Below, piece by piece: positions 25,602-32,673 of a DNA stretch of 64,000 nt. The DNA is from Tenericutes bacterium MZ-XQ. GTDB taxonomy: Bacteria; Bacillota_I; Bacilli_A; Acholeplasmatales; Acholeplasmataceae. Both the position numbers and the translations under genes were made by a program. The notes below the pieces were generated by a model. The model saw only the letters and a program-made list of their open reading frames with translations, did not search any database and had not been told where the DNA came from. The stretch lies in assembly GCA_002838205.1 (NCBI GenBank), contig CP017950.1, positions 186,001 to 250,000 of the forward strand, in the 5' to 3' direction. Positions within the stretch are counted from its first letter, which is position 1. Every line of letters starts with the position of its first letter.

Positions 25602-26279
25602 ATGGCTATAAAATGCCTGTATATTTTTAAAGATATAACAGAAATATCTTCCCTTATTAACATCCTAGATGAAATGAACTGGAAAATAGAAAAAGAATAT
25701 TTGAAGGACAGAGTTAGTTTTTATAGTAAAACAGTTTTATTCAAGAAATTAAAAAGTGACTTCCTATTAAAAAAACTCTCTATTTGGCCTTTAAAAGATG
25801 AAGAAGTGATTACATGGATGGATACTTTAACTCTTGTAAGTAGAGTGATGCTACAGCTTTTTAAAAGTGGTGTTCAGACAAATAAAATATCATTAGTTAT
25901 GGAATATCCAATTGTTTTTGGTAATCATATGCGAACCGATTATTTACTTATCTATGATCGACTTATTATTGTTCTAGAATTTGGGATGTTTAATCAAGAT
26001 GAAAAGAGAAGTGAAGAGAGATATACTAAGAAATTACAAGAGTCAAATAGTTATCGACAAATTATCGACAATTTATTAAAACCTGGAGTTGATGTAGTCA
26101 ACTATGTTATGATTTATAGACCAGAGTTTTCAAAAGTTAGTAATTCTAAAATTATTTCAAACATTGAGTATAATCAATTAGAACTTCAAAAATTAACAAA
26201 CTTTATAAAACATCTTGTGAAATTACAAGATAACTGTGCTCCTTTGTATCAACTTGAGTACTTAGAAAGTATATTGTAA
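25602..26279 (+). CDS. Hypothetical protein, possible PD-(D/E)xK nuclease fold
   Basis: A 225-residue protein of unrecognised family. A strand-turn-strand motif at 110-128, R-T-D113-YLLIYD followed by LIIVLE126-FG, resembles the acid pair of PD-(D/E)xK nucleases, but the lysine of ExK is replaced by glycine (G128). Lysines K143-K144 and the segment SNSYRQIIDN (148-157), like the tyrosine/glutamine helix of some such nucleases, follow. This reading is inference from a short pattern. No membrane segment is present. The gene sits alone between the tRNA array and an insertion sequence, a common place for acquired DNA. The start has GGAGGTG. Confidence 0.7.
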   Translation: MAIKCLYIFKDITEISSLINILDEMNWKIEKEYLKDRVSFYSKTVLFKKLKSDFLLKKLSIWPLKDEEVITWMDTLTLVSRVMLQLFKSGVQTNKISLVMEYPIVFGNHMRTDYLLIYDRLIIVLEFGMFNQDEKRSEERYTKKLQESNSYRQIIDNLLKPGVDVVNYVMIYRPEFSKVSNSKIISNIEYNQLELQKLTNFIKHLVKLQDNCAPLYQLEYLESIL

Positions 26280-26394: not shown

Positions 26395-26715
26395 TTAATC
26401 AATAAGTTTATGATAAATATCTAAAGGCACAAACTGCAACTTACCACAATGACTACAAACATCAACGGGAAAAGCAGCACCTTCAGTCTCCATAAAGTGA
26501 GCATAACCAGAAAAATTGACAGTAAGTTCAAATCCACAGTGCAGACATTTCATATCAACCATGATATCAAAATTAGGCATCGATATAAATGCATTAAATG
26601 AAGCGGCAGGGCCAGCAATGAATCCCTGCTTAACAGCTGATTTATATTCAGCATACAAATTCTTTTTTTGAACAAAAGACATATGCACAGATTTAGTTTT
26701 AAATAGTTTAGGCAT
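26395..26715 (-). CDS. Zinc-ribbon companion protein of the IS element
   Basis: A 106-residue protein starting MPKLF; an upstream in-frame start would add 16 residues inside the transposase gene. It has a basic N-terminus with KTKSVHMSFVQKKNLYAEY, then two CxxC pairs (C57/C60 in KCLHCGFE and C87/C90 in VCSHCGKL), which look like a zinc ribbon. Its start overlaps the end of the transposase gene by 8 bases, so the two are translated together. I do not recognise the family; a role in transposition or its regulation is inferred from position only. Confidence 0.7.
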   Translation of the reverse strand: MPKLFKTKSVHMSFVQKKNLYAEYKSAVKQGFIAGPAASFNAFISMPNFDIMVDMKCLHCGFELTVNFSGYAHFMETEGAAFPVDVCSHCGKLQFVPLDIYHKLID

Positions 26716-28033
26716 CGCTAAATAACCTCTCTTTTCGGTGATTTGGTAGATATGAAGCATCAAGATTTAAAACCATAGTAGAACCACACTGACATTTAAA
26801 GATGTCATAGTGATAAGTCTTAAGCAACAAAGTTCGAAAGTGAAGTTGATGTTTAAGATAAGTCAAAGATTTAGGGTTAACTAACTTTAACTCAGAGGCA
26901 ATTTTTCGTTTTGTCCGATTTGAATAAAAACCGTAATAACGAATCAGATGAAATCCTTTATCAGGGATGTGTTTAATGAGACGTGCAATAAATTTAAAGA
27001 CATGATCAGTGATGATTTGAGTACCTCGTTTATGATGTTTATCTGAAATTTGATCATCTTCATGAGGATCAAAATGCCAAGTGACTTGGTGATTGATATC
27101 ATCGAAGTCATCAATTCTAGATTCAGAGATGGCTGGATGAGAAGCATATCTGGCGATGTATTTAGCAATCTTTTTGGCTGTAGACAAGCTAGATTTTCTC
27201 TTTAATTGAGGCCCGTAAGTGTAAAAGCCTTTTTTATACTTATGAATGAGATAACTTCTTAAGCGATTAAACTCATTATAGATAGAATTTGTCGCATGGG
27301 TTTTCAAATAGGCTGAGATGTTACTTAAGAGTCTATATTGCCAAAACATACGCAGTCTCTCAAAAGGAAAGAAAGACATGTTGGATAGATGACCATGAGC
27401 ATCAATAAAGCGTTCAGCAACTAAAGCATGGATATGAGGATTGGTCTTCATATCTCTGCCATAGGTGTGAAGAAAACAAATGATGCCAAGTCTTCTATCT
27501 AATTGGTGGTCAGCCTTCGTTTTCTTAACAGCTTTATGAAGAACTTCATTTACAGTTTGAAATAAGATATCAAATAAGTCTCTATAAAGCCAAAAGAATT
27601 TACGCATCTCTTTAGCAACTGAAAAGACAAAATGTCTATGAGGGCACTTAAGTAATTTGGATTCAATCGCAAGTGTTCGAGCTTCTCGATATCTTTGATT
27701 ACAAGAAGGACAAAACCTTGAATGACAAGAAAGACCTTGGATATGAAAGTTATCACAAGTTGGGCATTCATAGAAGAAGTAGCCATATTTGAAATCACGA
27801 CAATGTATCATTTTTTCAACATTTTCGATAATTGAGGGACGTAGTTTATCTTCAAAATGAAGTTTAAATGAATCCCAATAGGTAGCAAATATAGATTGAA
27901 TGGAAATGGAGTTATCTCTATATACTTTTAAATTAGATAGTTTAACAAGCTCATTGTTAAAGACATGTTCACCATGTTTAAGAGCAAGTTCTAATTGATC
28001 TTTAAATTTATACTTAATCACTATAGGTTCCAT
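26708..28033 (-). CDS. IS91 family transposase (HUH, YxxxY)
   Basis: A 441-residue rolling-circle transposase. An N-terminal zinc finger (C90, C93, C103, C108, C111; CPTC, then CHSRFCPSC) is followed by the metal-binding HUH motif H200-I-H202 in TNPHIHALVAE, and by K-Y292-IAR-Y296-ASHPAISESR, which holds the two catalytic tyrosines of the IS91 group. A C-terminal CxC (C414, C416) is also present. The MEPIV start at 28033 is preferred to a GTG at 28102, because TATAAT on the minus strand (28045-28040) lies between them. With that promoter the message would begin at about the ATG. The gene looks intact. Confidence 0.92.
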   Translation of the reverse strand: MEPIVIKYKFKDQLELALKHGEHVFNNELVKLSNLKVYRDNSISIQSIFATYWDSFKLHFEDKLRPSIIENVEKMIHCRDFKYGYFFYECPTCDNFHIQGLSCHSRFCPSCNQRYREARTLAIESKLLKCPHRHFVFSVAKEMRKFFWLYRDLFDILFQTVNEVLHKAVKKTKADHQLDRRLGIICFLHTYGRDMKTNPHIHALVAERFIDAHGHLSNMSFFPFERLRMFWQYRLLSNISAYLKTHATNSIYNEFNRLRSYLIHKYKKGFYTYGPQLKRKSSLSTAKKIAKYIARYASHPAISESRIDDFDDINHQVTWHFDPHEDDQISDKHHKRGTQIITDHVFKFIARLIKHIPDKGFHLIRYYGFYSNRTKRKIASELKLVNPKSLTYLKHQLHFRTLLLKTYHYDIFKCQCGSTMVLNLDASYLPNHRKERLFSDA

Positions 28034-28039
28034 AAATCT

Positions 28040-28045
28040 ATTATA
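28040..28045 (-). promoter_or_regulatory. -10 box of the IS91 transposase
   Basis: TATAAT on the minus strand ends 6 bases before the ATG at 28033, so transcription would start at or next to the start codon. The -35 region is T-rich without consensus. Confidence 0.5.
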
Positions 28046-28063
28046 CAATGTGACTTTAAAAAG

Positions 28064-28084
28064 AAAAAGGCGATTTTTATCGCC
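28064..28084 (-). terminator. Hairpin upstream of the transposase (terminator-like on the minus strand)
   Basis: GGCGAT (28069-28074) and ATCGCC (28079-28084) pair around TTTT; on the minus strand the stem is followed by five T residues. It could shield the transposase from outside transcription or mark the end of the element. A second hairpin, AGTGAAT/ATTCACT at 28088-28103, follows directly. Confidence 0.6.
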
Positions 28085-28110
28085 CCTAGTGAATTTATTC
28101 ACTTTTGTTC

Positions 28111-28167: not shown

Positions 28168-29019
28168 ATGTCAGAAAAAATTGGATTAGTAGTTTGTGGA
28201 AACTCTGGTATTGATTACATGTCTTTAAATTATCCAGTAAAGGTAATTAGATCGACTCTAAATGTTGATGGCAAAGAATATGAAGACTATGTAGATATTC
28301 AAGCTAAAGATTTTTATAAAATGGTAGAAGAAAATCCGAACATAGATGTTTCTACATCTCAAACATCTACAGGGAAAATTGCTAGTGTATATGAAGAATT
28401 AAAAGCAGAAGGTTATACGGATGTTATTGTAGTAGTTATATCATCTAAATTAAGTGGGACTTATCAAGGAGCTATTTTAGCTAAAGAACTAGTCAAGGAC
28501 CTTAACGTTTTTGTTTTGGATTCTAGAAGTGTATCATATGGTGAAGCATATTTGATATTAGAAGCAATAAGACTTATTAAAGAGGGTAAAAAGACCGTTG
28601 ATATTATCAATCACTTGGAAAAAATTAGAGATCATATTTATATCTATGTATTGGTTGATACATTAAAGTTCTTAGTGAAAAACGGTAGACTATCTGTAAC
28701 TAGTGGATTTTTAGGAACACTACTAAAAATTAAGCCATTGCTCCATGTTCAAAAAGATGGCAGATTGGTTCCACTAGAAAAAATTAGAACTACACACAAA
28801 GCGCAAAGTAGATTAATTGAAATTATTGAAGAAAAAATTCATGAAAAAAATGTTATAATGTTTATAGCATATACGAATAATTTAGAAAAAGCTGAAGAAC
28901 TGAAAGAAATATTTTTAAAGAAGAGAAAAGATATTATAGTAGAGTTAGTACCGTTAACACCTGTTGTTGGAGCACACGCTGGTCCTGGAACTTTGGGTGT
29001 AGGATATATAGAAATATAA
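28168..29019 (+). CDS. DegV family fatty acid-binding protein (FakB-like)
   Basis: Cytoplasmic carrier of the DegV fold; characterised FakB members hand a bound fatty acid to the kinase FakA for phospholipid synthesis. The 283 residues show the ligand motif DVSTSQTSTG (about 54-63), SSKLSGTYQGA, LDSRSVSYGEAYL and KNGRLSVTSGFLGTLLKIKPLL, all typical. The N-terminal TDS motif of many members reads CGNSG here. The start has GAAGGAG. A MarR-type regulator of the FabT kind follows 19 bases later, which supports a lipid role. No fakA is in the window. Confidence 0.92.
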   Translation: MSEKIGLVVCGNSGIDYMSLNYPVKVIRSTLNVDGKEYEDYVDIQAKDFYKMVEENPNIDVSTSQTSTGKIASVYEELKAEGYTDVIVVVISSKLSGTYQGAILAKELVKDLNVFVLDSRSVSYGEAYLILEAIRLIKEGKKTVDIINHLEKIRDHIYIYVLVDTLKFLVKNGRLSVTSGFLGTLLKIKPLLHVQKDGRLVPLEKIRTTHKAQSRLIEIIEEKIHEKNVIMFIAYTNNLEKAEELKEIFLKKRKDIIVELVPLTPVVGAHAGPGTLGVGYIEI

Positions 29020-29038: not shown

Positions 29039-29476
29039 GTGGTTTCTGCTAAAGAAGTAATCAATGAGTTGTTAGTCGATGTTTTTAACCATATTTTGAG
29101 TATAGAAGCTGAAGTGCTTAGAGAACGAGGAGTGAAACTCTCTATGACAGAGGTTCATGTTCTTGAAGCAATTAAGAACACTTCTGAGCCAACGATGGGT
29201 AATGTCGCAAACAAACTTAGAATTACAATGGGTACTTTAACAACTTCAATCAATGTTCTAGTCAGAAAAAATTTTGTTAATGGATATCGTGATGAAAACG
29301 ATAGAAGAAAAGTTTATTTAGAGCTTAAGGAATCTGCCAAGGAAGTATTAAGGATTCACGATGATTTTCATGAAGAAATGGTTTCATCCTTATTAAAAGA
29401 TTTGGAGTTGGAAAAAGATGAAATCCTTTTAAAGTCGTTAGAAAATATCAGCAATTATTTCAAGCAAAGATATTAA
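29039..29476 (+). CDS. MarR family transcriptional regulator (FabT-like)
   Basis: A 145-residue winged-helix regulator starting at GTG 29039, with AGGTGAT upstream. Core: LSMTEVHVLEAIKN, then TMGNVANKLRITMGTLTTSINVLVRKNFVNG as the recognition region, and the wing YRDENDRRKVYLELK. The TMGTLT and REL-type context resembles FabT, the fatty acid synthesis repressor of streptococci, and the neighbouring FakB-like gene fits that. The resemblance is by eye, so a general MarR role is also possible. It ends at a terminator. Confidence 0.85.
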   Translation: MVSAKEVINELLVDVFNHILSIEAEVLRERGVKLSMTEVHVLEAIKNTSEPTMGNVANKLRITMGTLTTSINVLVRKNFVNGYRDENDRRKVYLELKESAKEVLRIHDDFHEEMVSSLLKDLELEKDEILLKSLENISNYFKQRY

Positions 29477-29570: not shown

Positions 29571-30509
29571 ATGAAGGATTATATTTATGGAATAGATGTG
29601 GGTGGAACGACCATCAAGATGGGATTGTTCACTGTGGATGATATGAAAACAATTGATAGTTATGAAATACCTACACCGTCTTTGGAAAATGGTAGTTTTA
29701 TTTTTAAAAAAATCTATGAATCGATCTTGGAATGCAATAAAAGAAATAATATTGACATAAAACAATTGCTTGGTATAGGTATTGATGTACCTTGTCCAAT
29801 TAAAAATGGGTATGTGGAAAGTTGCGCTAATTTACATTTAAATGATATTGATTTAATCGCTGAGATGAATAAGTATGTGGATAGCCACATCAAGATTGCT
29901 ATTGCCAATGATGCGACAATAGCTGCATATGGTGAAAATGCTTCATTAGAAAAACCTTATAAGAATGCAGTATTAATTACATTAGGAACTGGTGTTGGCG
30001 GTGGTATTATACTTGATGGTAAAATTATAGAAGGTTCTACAGGTTTTGGAGGCGAAATAGGGCATATTCGTGTTTATAATGAAGAAGATAAAGTATGCGG
30101 ATGTGGATCTATGGGGTGTCTTGAACAAATTTGTGGCACAAAAGGAATTCTGGATTTTACAATAGAACAACTCGAAAGCAAACCATCAGTTTTAAATAAA
30201 AACAACTTGACAGTTAAAGCAATCTTTGATGCTGCTAAGCAAAATGATGAAGTTGCATTAATGACGGTCCATCGCGTTGCAAAATATATTGGAATTGCAG
30301 CTAGTATTATTTCTATGACAGTTGAGCCAGAAGTTTACATTATTGGTGGAGGAATATCTAAAGCTGGTCCATTTTTGATAGATTTAGTTGAAAGATATTA
30401 TAGAGAAAATGCTAGGTTTTCGACAGGGAAGATCCCGTTTAAATTAGCACATACAGGTAATGATGCTGGTATGATAGGATCAGCTCTATTAGTTAAAAGT
30501 TATATATAA
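29571..30509 (+). CDS. glcK: ROK family glucokinase
   Basis: ATP-dependent sugar kinase, most likely glucose to glucose 6-phosphate. The 312 residues show the ATP motif DVGGTTIKMG (6-15), PIKNGYVESCANLHL, IANDATIAAYGE, LGTGVGGGIILDG, and the ROK zinc motif CGCGSMGCLEQICG. Length and all motifs match glucokinases of Firmicutes. Substrate is inferred; other hexoses are possible. The following gene is an enzyme I-like pseudoenzyme, and free glucose phosphorylation would make sense in a cell with a reduced PTS. The start has AGGAGGT. Confidence 0.9.
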   Translation: MKDYIYGIDVGGTTIKMGLFTVDDMKTIDSYEIPTPSLENGSFIFKKIYESILECNKRNNIDIKQLLGIGIDVPCPIKNGYVESCANLHLNDIDLIAEMNKYVDSHIKIAIANDATIAAYGENASLEKPYKNAVLITLGTGVGGGIILDGKIIEGSTGFGGEIGHIRVYNEEDKVCGCGSMGCLEQICGTKGILDFTIEQLESKPSVLNKNNLTVKAIFDAAKQNDEVALMTVHRVAKYIGIAASIISMTVEPEVYIIGGGISKAGPFLIDLVERYYRENARFSTGKIPFKLAHTGNDAGMIGSALLVKSYI

Positions 30510-30556: not shown

Positions 30557-32176
30557 ATGAGTAATAAGTATTTGGGGGATTTTATAGCAATAGGCAAGAA
30601 CATCCACGTAGACATAAAAAAGAGGAATATTCAGTACTCAAAAAAGGATCTAAAAACAGCAACAAACGAAATTATTCAAATAATTAAGAATTATATTGGT
30701 GAAATATATGATGAGATGGTTGAAGTAAACAAGTTAAAAGGTGTGAACGAGTATCCATATGTTTTTGCACCTTTTTTTGCGTCAAAAACTTTTGAAATGA
30801 TGAAGGAACTAACTTACACAAGTGATATTTCTTTTGTAGAAGCCTTTAATAAAGCTGTTAATTGGTTTATGAAAAATCAAAAGTTTAATTTATTTACTAA
30901 TTATGCAAAAGAAGATAAAAAAGAGAAAATGGATGAACAAACGATAAGAATCAAAGAAAGGGTGATTAAGTTTCTCAATAGATACTTTATCCAGAAGCTG
31001 GCTAGTGAAACTGATGAAGATGTCATAGTTTCAATTTCAAAAATTGAAAAAGAGTATTTCTACGAACTCCCAATTAATGTTAAAGGGTTTGTTTGTCGCT
31101 CAGTTGATAATGAAATGTTAATCAAAGATATGGCATATGCTTATGAGATCCCTATTGTTATAACAACAAAAAGCGTTTTTGATTCGAAATTAATTGTGAT
31201 TGATAATGTTAATAAAAAATTACTCATTGATCCAAATGAGCTCAATCTAAATAAGTCTTATGAATTACAAAGAAAAACAACCATTTGTAGTCAAGATAAA
31301 CCTAGATATGATTCAGAAATAATTAAATATTATGCATCTTTAGTAGATTTAAGATACTTAGATCTTGTGAAAAATAATGGGTGGTATAAAGGTGGAGTCT
31401 TTTTTAGAACTGAATATATTTTCCTATCGAAGGGTTTTTTTCCTAGATATGATGAACTAGTAGGTATTTTTACAAACTTAATGAATGCTTTTCATGATAG
31501 AGAAATTCAAGTACAGTTACCTGAATTTAATCATTTCAAACAGGTAGATTACGAGATAGATGATGAAATATATACTGAAGTAGATTTAGTTAGTATATAC
31601 CATAGAGTATTTTTTAGAACAGTTAATGCTTTATACGAAGCTTCAAACATTGCTCATAAAAAAGTTACTCTAGTCATTCCTTCTTTACGTGTAGGATCTG
31701 AGGTTTATCACTGGAAAGATAAAATAGATTGTTTCTTAGGTATTGATCGTTCTGTTGAAACTGGACCTAAGTTTGGGATTACGATGGAAACAGAGTCGGC
31801 AATCGAATATTTTGAAGATTATAAAGAAGTGAGTTCTATCATCTTCGGTATGGATAACTATATAGAAGAAGCTTTGGAAATATCTAGATATGATGAAATT
31901 GATAAAAAATATTTTATGAGTGCTGCGTGGCCTGACATGCACTTAGCTCATCAGTTTTACAGAAAAAATGGAATTAGGATGTTGCAAATAATGTATGGTG
32001 TCATACTCAGGGATCCATTCTTTCTAAGGAAATTCTTCAATAAAGGATTTAAGCATTTTATTATCCCTTTAAGCACATTAAAAATGGCGGAAGACGTATT
32101 ATATACGTATGAATCTACAAGAGGGAAGTATGTTGGAGTTCATGCTAAAAGAAAAAGTGCAAAATTAAATAAATAA
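30557..32176 (+). CDS. PTS enzyme I-like protein lacking catalytic residues
   Basis: A 539-residue cytoplasmic protein that aligns by eye to enzyme I along its length. Residues 176-226 match the swivelling domain (VKGFVCRS...[15 protein letters not shown]...[14 protein letters not shown]), but the phospho-histidine segment GGxTSH is replaced by VDNEML. Residues 279-520 match the PEP barrel: [16 protein letters not shown] (FRTE kept), [34 protein letters not shown] and, in place of the catalytic [11 protein letters not shown]. It is thus probably not a working phosphotransferase. A role in sensing or a different reaction is inference. No HPr or ptsI lies nearby. Codon use resembles neighbours. 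Confidence 0.8.
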
Positions 32177-32235: not shown

Positions 32236-32364
32236 GCTCGTGTGTATACGAGAAAAGGCTGTGAAATGGGAGGTTGCCGACACACGGATACCCGTTGTCT
32301 ATGTGGTTGGGTTTTTCCATGGAGCAAGTCTATACAAGATTATAGGCGAAAGGAGCTATACAAA
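32236..32364 (+). promoter_or_regulatory. Structured leader of the S10 operon
   Basis: A leader of about 130 nt precedes rpsJ. It holds CTCGT/ACGAG (32237-32252 region), then GACA-C-ACGG-ATAC-CCGT-TGTC (about 32278-32299), an 8-bp hairpin with one bulged C, flanked by GGGAGGTTGCC and GGTTGGGTTTTTCC. Such structure fits autoregulation by a ribosomal protein, L4 being the known regulator of S10 leaders in other bacteria. The identity of the ligand here is inference. Confidence 0.55.
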
Positions 32365-32673
32365 ATGGCAAAAGATGTAATTAAAATTCGTTTGAAGGCT
32401 TACGATCACAGATTATTAGATCAAGCTGCTAAAAAGATTGTGGATAGTGCTTTAAGAACTGGAGCTTCAGTTCAAGGTCCAATTCCTCTTCCAACAGAAA
32501 AGGAAATCTTTACAATCTTACGTTCACCACACGTTAATAAAGATTCACGTGAACAATTTGAACGTAGAACGCACAAGAGATTAATTCAAATCGTTGATCC
32601 AAACCCTAAAACAATTAGTGCATTGATGGATATAGATTTACCATCAGGTATTGATATCGTACTTAAAAAATAA
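32365..32673 (+). CDS. rpsJ: Ribosomal protein uS10
   Basis: First gene of the S10 operon, 102 residues; also the NusE partner in transcription antitermination. The start at 32365 ([20 protein letters not shown]) is set by AAAGGAGC and by homology; a longer frame from 32242 runs back through the leader and is not believed. Conserved [21 protein letters not shown] and [14 protein letters not shown] are present, and length is normal. The 26-base gap to rplC carries a GAAAGAGGT ribosome site. Confidence 0.98.

Follow-up and report, generated by a model that had tools for sequence, protein, structure and literature searches.

The 539-codon gene upstream of the S10 ribosomal protein operon in Tenericutes bacterium MZ-XQ, here called EIx, probably encodes a vertically inherited Enzyme I (EI) paralogue of the Acholeplasmatales, turned into a non-phosphotransfer protein. 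Enzyme I is the starter of bacterial sugar-import phosphorylation and is among the best studied phosphotransferases. EIx lies in the stretch of 64,000 nucleotides analysed here (the window; assembly GCA_002838205.1, contig CP017950.1, positions 186,001 to 250,000 of the forward strand), and the features of its locus are listed in Table 1. Active-looking, dead and barrel-only forms occur at one locus in related bacteria, which allows the change from enzyme to pseudoenzyme to be traced stepwise.

Table 1. The EIx gene, its sites and its neighbours (positions in the window), and the canonical EI loci of the same genome (locus named with the positions).
Feature	Position	Strand	Basis or remark
EI-derived pseudoenzyme gene (EIx), 539 aa	30557..32176	+	Pfam, NCBIfam, predicted fold, site alignment, tree
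VDNEML at the position of the EI phospho-His loop (GGxxSH), aa 183-188; His189 equivalent is Leu188	31103..31120	+	alignment
FRTE, aa 283-286; Arg296 equivalent kept as Arg284	31403..31414	+	alignment
LPEFNHFK, aa 321-328, replacing RT-DIGGDK; Arg332 equivalent is Gln320; Pro322 family-specific, conserved	31517..31540	+	alignment
METES; Mg-ligand Glu431 equivalent kept as Glu411; Glu413 family-specific	31784..31798	+	alignment
GMDNY replacing GTNDL; Asn454-Asp455 become Asp433-Asn434	31847..31861	+	alignment
YGV, aa 480-482, replacing CGE; Cys502 equivalent is Tyr480	31994..32002	+	alignment
[10 protein letters not shown]-terminal motif, kept across the pseudo-EI family, missing from short EIs	32114..32140	+	conservation
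ROK-family sugar kinase (glucokinase-like), upstream neighbour	29571..30509	+	adjoins 32/47 copies
MarR-family regulator; best model FabT, under the FabT cut-off	29039..29476	+	near 42/47 copies
DegV/FakB-like fatty-acid-binding protein	28168..29019	+	near 45/47 copies
S10-Clostridia ribosomal protein leader (RF03136), between EIx and rpsJ	32253..32349	+	
rpsJ (S10), start of the S10 operon, conserved downstream neighbour	32242..32673	+	ORF-tool frame, GTG at 32242
Canonical EI loci of the window's genome	L205 3402-5492; L206 3479-5960		

In a search of its own genome, PF02896 gave 27 bits for EIx, above the curated cut-off, and also matched a PPDK and two canonical EIs, which scored 367 and 355 bits. 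The NCBIfam model for EI (TIGR01417) matched residues 80-445 (4e-10) with 38.6 bits, which is below its cut-off of 341.7, and a PDB sequence search returned EI chains at 0.002 or worse only. The AlphaFold2 model, made from 14 family members (pLDDT 87.7, pTM 0.87), had E. coli EI (2hwg) as its best PDB match, with Z 31.3 over 478 aligned residues (VIA-align); EI was also the top Foldseek match (E 6.4e-20), and the alignment with EI spans residues 2-522, with the EI domains in order. PPDK and PEP synthase, which share the swivelling and PEP-barrel domains, matched at Z 24-26, and CitE-like lyases were also among the fold matches. EIx differs from PPDK and PEP synthase by a sequence nearer to EI and by the absence of the ATP-grasp nucleotide-binding domain from its ORF, in which PF02896 was the sole Pfam match. 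According to the model, EIx is predicted to fold as a full-length EI, with a poorly ordered part just past the lost DIGGDK loop (pLDDT about 52-54, residues 331-350).

The original prediction had described a protein that is EI-like through the swivelling and PEP-barrel domains, with FRTE kept, VDNEML in the phospho-histidine region, LPEFNHFK instead of the DIGGDK loop, YGV instead of CGE and a frame intact over 539 residues. All of this is borne out by the fold comparison with EI, PPDK and PEP synthase, which had been proposed as a check, by the alignment and by the ORF itself, which has an ATG start and no internal stop. The functional roles of the EI residues are established, and the sites of EIx were assigned by alignment with seven canonical EIs, single sites being uncertain in the most diverged copies. 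The NPxLGxRxIR segment with Arg358 is missing as well, and the PEP/Mg ligand set is partial: Arg284, Glu411 and Arg444 (the Arg465 equivalent) are kept, Gln320, Asp433 and Asn434 are changed. Among the 35 aligned copies of the window's family (f1), the His189 equivalent is never a histidine (0/35) and the Cys502 equivalent never a cysteine (0/35), the Arg332 position holds Arg in 14/35 (Gln in the EIx of the window) and the Glu431 position holds Glu or Asp in 33/35, Glu431 often being gone in the most decayed copies (g4, g12). As for the aligned copies of the two sister families (f3 and f5), the histidine and the cysteine were each found in 24 of 25. Because His, Cys, the DIGGDK loop and the Arg358 segment are missing and Arg332 is replaced, EIx, going by its residues, presumably cannot function through the established EI mechanism, and we propose that it does not hand phosphate to HPr. 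These same changes, together with the model score, set EIx apart from PtsI (TIGR01417), which it resembles in full domain order, in fold and in several PEP/Mg ligands.

Relatives were sought in 160 genomes of the order Acholeplasmatales and in 296 genomes of the class by whole-genome searches, used after a single-protein scan of contigs had given one relative (MO-XQ); they were confined to the Acholeplasmatales. A shortened EI, about 500 aa long, occurs in the sister families f3 and f5. It lacks the Asn352-Arg358 segment, as EIx does, and differs from EIx in keeping His189, Cys502, Arg296, Arg332, Glu431, Asn454, Asp455 and Arg465; these sister clades (e.g. L047, L050) also share the locus of EIx in the case of f5. 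The Asn352 column is gapped in 60/60 members of the clade of short EIs and pseudo-EIs. With profile A2, short EIs scored 473-773 bits, in Acholeplasmatales only, and the other EIs listed in the class (296 genomes) scored at most 338. The tree separated canonical EIs, f5 short EIs, f3 short EIs and the window's family into four groups, each cut off by a single branch (SH-aLRT 95-100). A single branch also set the short EI/pseudo-EI clade of 57 rows apart (support 100), and the stem of the f1 pseudo-EIs had a length of 1.07 (support 100); it is a quick tree with long rows, which leaves the branching order of the three EIx groups unsettled. A short EI of f5 (G040, L112) lost His and Cys independently, and the genome that carries it lacks HPr, HPr kinase and canonical EI. 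No name was found in the literature for the short EI of f3 and f5, nor was any EI-derived pseudoenzyme or inactive EI lineage found in the literature searched, and EIx is not mentioned in that on Acholeplasma genomes and EI evolution, the A. laidlawii genome/proteome paper lying outside the search.

EIx is the fastest-evolving gene of its locus, with 65% identity to its counterpart in MO-XQ, compared with 83% for ROK and 94% for DegV. This fast divergence could be that of a slowly dying pseudogene, drifting under weak constraint after a canonical EI took over, and the truncated copies of 360-390 aa and the losses in several lineages (at least in G061 and G016, EIx is lost while its neighbours stay) point the same way, as does a nonsense codon in G021; one copy (L037) has an in-frame TAG. 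We nevertheless regard such a pseudogene as unlikely. More than 40 frames are intact across the family, and dN/dS is 0.07-0.2 in most pairs; the YN00 values are unusable for most pairs because dS is saturated, and the pairs with unsaturated dS gave 0.07-0.10 (L040/L041) and 0.14-0.15 (G063/G064). Other f1 pairs ranged from 0.12 to 0.37, with dS mostly saturated, and the EIx of the window gave 0.14 (NG86) against its closest species, again with saturated dS. In a neutral simulation at 0.1 substitutions per site, 0 out of 2000 frames remained stop-free. Frame decay, in relatives too, is therefore rejected on the basis of dN/dS and the simulation. Also against a pseudogene, Trp386, His465, Pro322 and the C-terminal RGKY tail are newly conserved, in the f1 family only; the tail has a conservation of 0.432 in f1 vs. 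0.060 in the short EIs. These data support the view that EIx is kept by purifying selection as an intact protein without phosphotransfer, in line with the selected role that had been predicted for a protein devoid of the phosphotransfer residues. Beside selection in some lineages, there is clearly neutral drift towards loss in others. Should G063 be A. laidlawii, a cultivable model organism would possess an EIx copy, allowing direct testing.

HPr, HPr kinase, canonical EI and EIIC (PF02378) were also sought across the genomes of the order. The window's genome (2.16 Mb, one contig) possesses two canonical EIs (565 and 567 aa), one adjoining an HPr gene and the other part of an EIIA_1-EI operon, after which comes a 104-aa ORF that has no match in Pfam, as well as a PPDK and three HPr. 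EIIC (PF02378) is absent from this genome and from 132 of the 160 genomes, and the PTS of the window's genome may, from its gene content, be regulatory only. Nearly all f3 genomes and several of f5 have the short EI as their sole EI, alongside HPr and HPr kinase, and the f3 genomes are mostly without EIIC; the order comes to light as one where a shortened EI is often the sole EI, in a PTS largely devoid of EIIC transporters. As for f1, the genomes with EIx and HPr have a canonical EI at another place, the exceptions being incomplete assemblies (G029, G070 and a fragment in G079). EI, HPr and HPr kinase are all absent from three g4 genomes (G007, G020 and G031), and yet at S10 these carry EIx copies of 359-393 aa that are in frame and in which the barrel and the new C-terminal RGKY motif are all that remains. 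In the model of a g4 copy, the barrel (pLDDT about 80-90) matches the EI, PPDK and PEP synthase barrels at Z 15-17, and the N-terminal third has a pLDDT below 50.

This persistence bears on whether EIx could be a regulator of the PTS, tuning the phosphorelay either as an HPr decoy or by forming heterodimers with canonical EI. EI normally dimerises via its barrel domain, the full EI architecture is kept in the window's genus, and canonical EI and HPr coexist with EIx in most genomes, all of which would suit such a regulator. The HPr-binding helical domain is, however, the least conserved folded part in f1 (0.294, vs. 0.423 for the barrel) and is not confidently folded in g4, and EIx persists in g4 and in G040 without EI, HPr and HPr kinase. 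Because of this persistence without a phosphorelay, a decoy or heterodimer is disfavoured as the conserved role, and we give this explanation a small chance; any role that requires the PTS is unlikely for the same reason. A PTS-independent role of the barrel is most likely, given the copies that survive where EI, HPr and HPr kinase are all missing, and the barrel would do something unrelated to sugar phosphorylation. EIx has in common with pseudoenzymes in general that the catalytic residues are lost while fold and purifying selection are kept; its persistence past the loss of a whole pathway is unusual among them.

In f1, the barrel mouth is more conserved than the opposite face (0.540 vs. 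0.406, p 0.0006), the mouth being set from the strand ends of the predicted secondary structure rather than from coordinates. In the apparently active short EIs, too, no face is better conserved than the mouth, and part of this signal could be an ancestral fold constraint. This mouth, the CitE-like lyases among the fold matches, the near-constant Glu or Asp at the Glu431 position and the new conserved Glu413, Asp433 and His465 might be those of a new enzyme, a PEP/pyruvate barrel re-tooled for carboxylate or keto acid chemistry, as in the citrate-lyase-beta and malyl-CoA-lyase relatives. In the 14-sequence set, Glu411 and His465 are invariant, the other invariant columns being Gly, Pro, Ala or Ile, and the g4 and g12 copies are often without these residues; no strictly invariant catalytic set exists across the family, which makes a new enzyme improbable. 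Since Glu431 is often gone in g4 and g12, the case for a conserved ligand site is weakened as well. As a guess, a sensor or structural function for the barrel has the most support.

Concerning the neighbourhood, the gene order in f1 and f5 is DegV-MarR-ROK-EIx-S10 operon, with EIx immediately upstream of S10. Members of the clade almost always precede the S10 operon, and they usually follow DegV, a FabT-like regulator and ROK; among the f3 genera, some (L115, L121 and L122) have the gene close to S10 and others have it at a different place. Among the 47 copies that are near S10 and have enough upstream sequence, DegV was present in 45, MarR in 42 and ROK in 32. The sugar-use regulation with the ROK kinase that had been predicted for EIx is not upheld as stated, the kinase being absent beside 15 of the 47 copies, to be compared with the near-constant DegV. 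PEP sensing, the other role suggested, may suit the widely kept Glu431 position, and suits less well an Arg332 position that holds Arg in only 14/35 copies and Gln in EIx. In its more specific form, with EIx sensing PEP and controlling the ROK glucokinase next to it, the ROK idea can appeal to the gap of only 47 bases between the two genes, to the ROK gene beside the 32 other copies and to the PEP/Mg site, of which EIx keeps Glu411, Arg284 and Arg444. It is at odds with the third of copies without an adjacent ROK, because of which an obligatory glucokinase partner is disfavoured, and with a site in which Arg332 has become Gln and the Mg-ligand Asp455 Asn, and in which the DIGGDK loop is lost and the stretch just past it poorly ordered. 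A PEP sensor for ROK thus has little to recommend it for the family, a ROK link in the window's genus being possible.

EIx may also have been conserved through co-transcription with S10. Against this, the S10 leader RNA separates EIx from rpsJ in the window, and the leader was also found between EIx and rpsJ in 4 of the 8 relatives checked (L033, L040, L093 and L122); because of this leader, S10 expression would have its own control. The first part of the listed rpsJ frame overlaps the leader, and its true start is likely near 32365, going by the 102-aa length in relatives. Promoter scans gave fewer matches than shuffled sequence.

Taken as a whole, the explanation that we favour, with somewhat more confidence than doubt, is that of an EI paralogue that became a non-phosphotransfer protein with a second role. 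From the comparison, the ancestor at or near the locus was a shortened EI, without Asn352-Arg358 and with His189, Cys502 and the PEP ligands, a type that survives in the two sister families, usually as the sole EI with HPr and HPr kinase. The stem of the window's family then saw the loss of His, Cys and the DIGGDK loop, with purifying selection keeping the fold, the frame, the Glu431 position and the family-specific residues of the barrel mouth and C-terminus. With canonical EIs there to serve the PTS, this loss may have been tolerated, and what may have kept the protein is a second function for which the PEP-type TIM barrel and the C-terminal RGKY tail suffice. As the least certain step, the barrel might bind a small acidic metabolite and serve as a sensor or as a structural partner of another protein, possibly from the surrounding DegV/FabT-like operon. 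In a more tentative variant, which we hold possible and rather doubtful, the barrel already had a PTS-independent second job in the short EI ancestor; once the presence of canonical EI, or the loss of HPr, had ended the need for phosphotransfer, it was reduced in place to a metabolite sensor or re-tooled enzyme, with barrel mouth and RGKY tail, and it is now kept in bacteria devoid of the PTS phosphorelay.

A phage origin of EIx was also considered and was not supported, with no PHROG match and a stable synteny. Further upstream in the window, the gene of a 225-aa protein (25602-26276) gave no Pfam, NCBIfam or PHROG match, and a PD-(D/E)XK identity for it was a guess unsupported by Pfam or NCBIfam; for 20 of the 47 EIx copies, this gene is one of the four that lie upstream. 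Between it and degV lies an IS91-type transposase gene (Y2_Tnp and zinc-binding domain; 26708-28102, minus strand), which is not at the same place in the sister genome MO-XQ (L033). Finally, in several f3 genomes (L050, L119, L123 and L125) the short EI is preceded by a type I phosphodiesterase-like protein of 433-441 aa, and in some of them it is followed by a SpoVT-like regulator.
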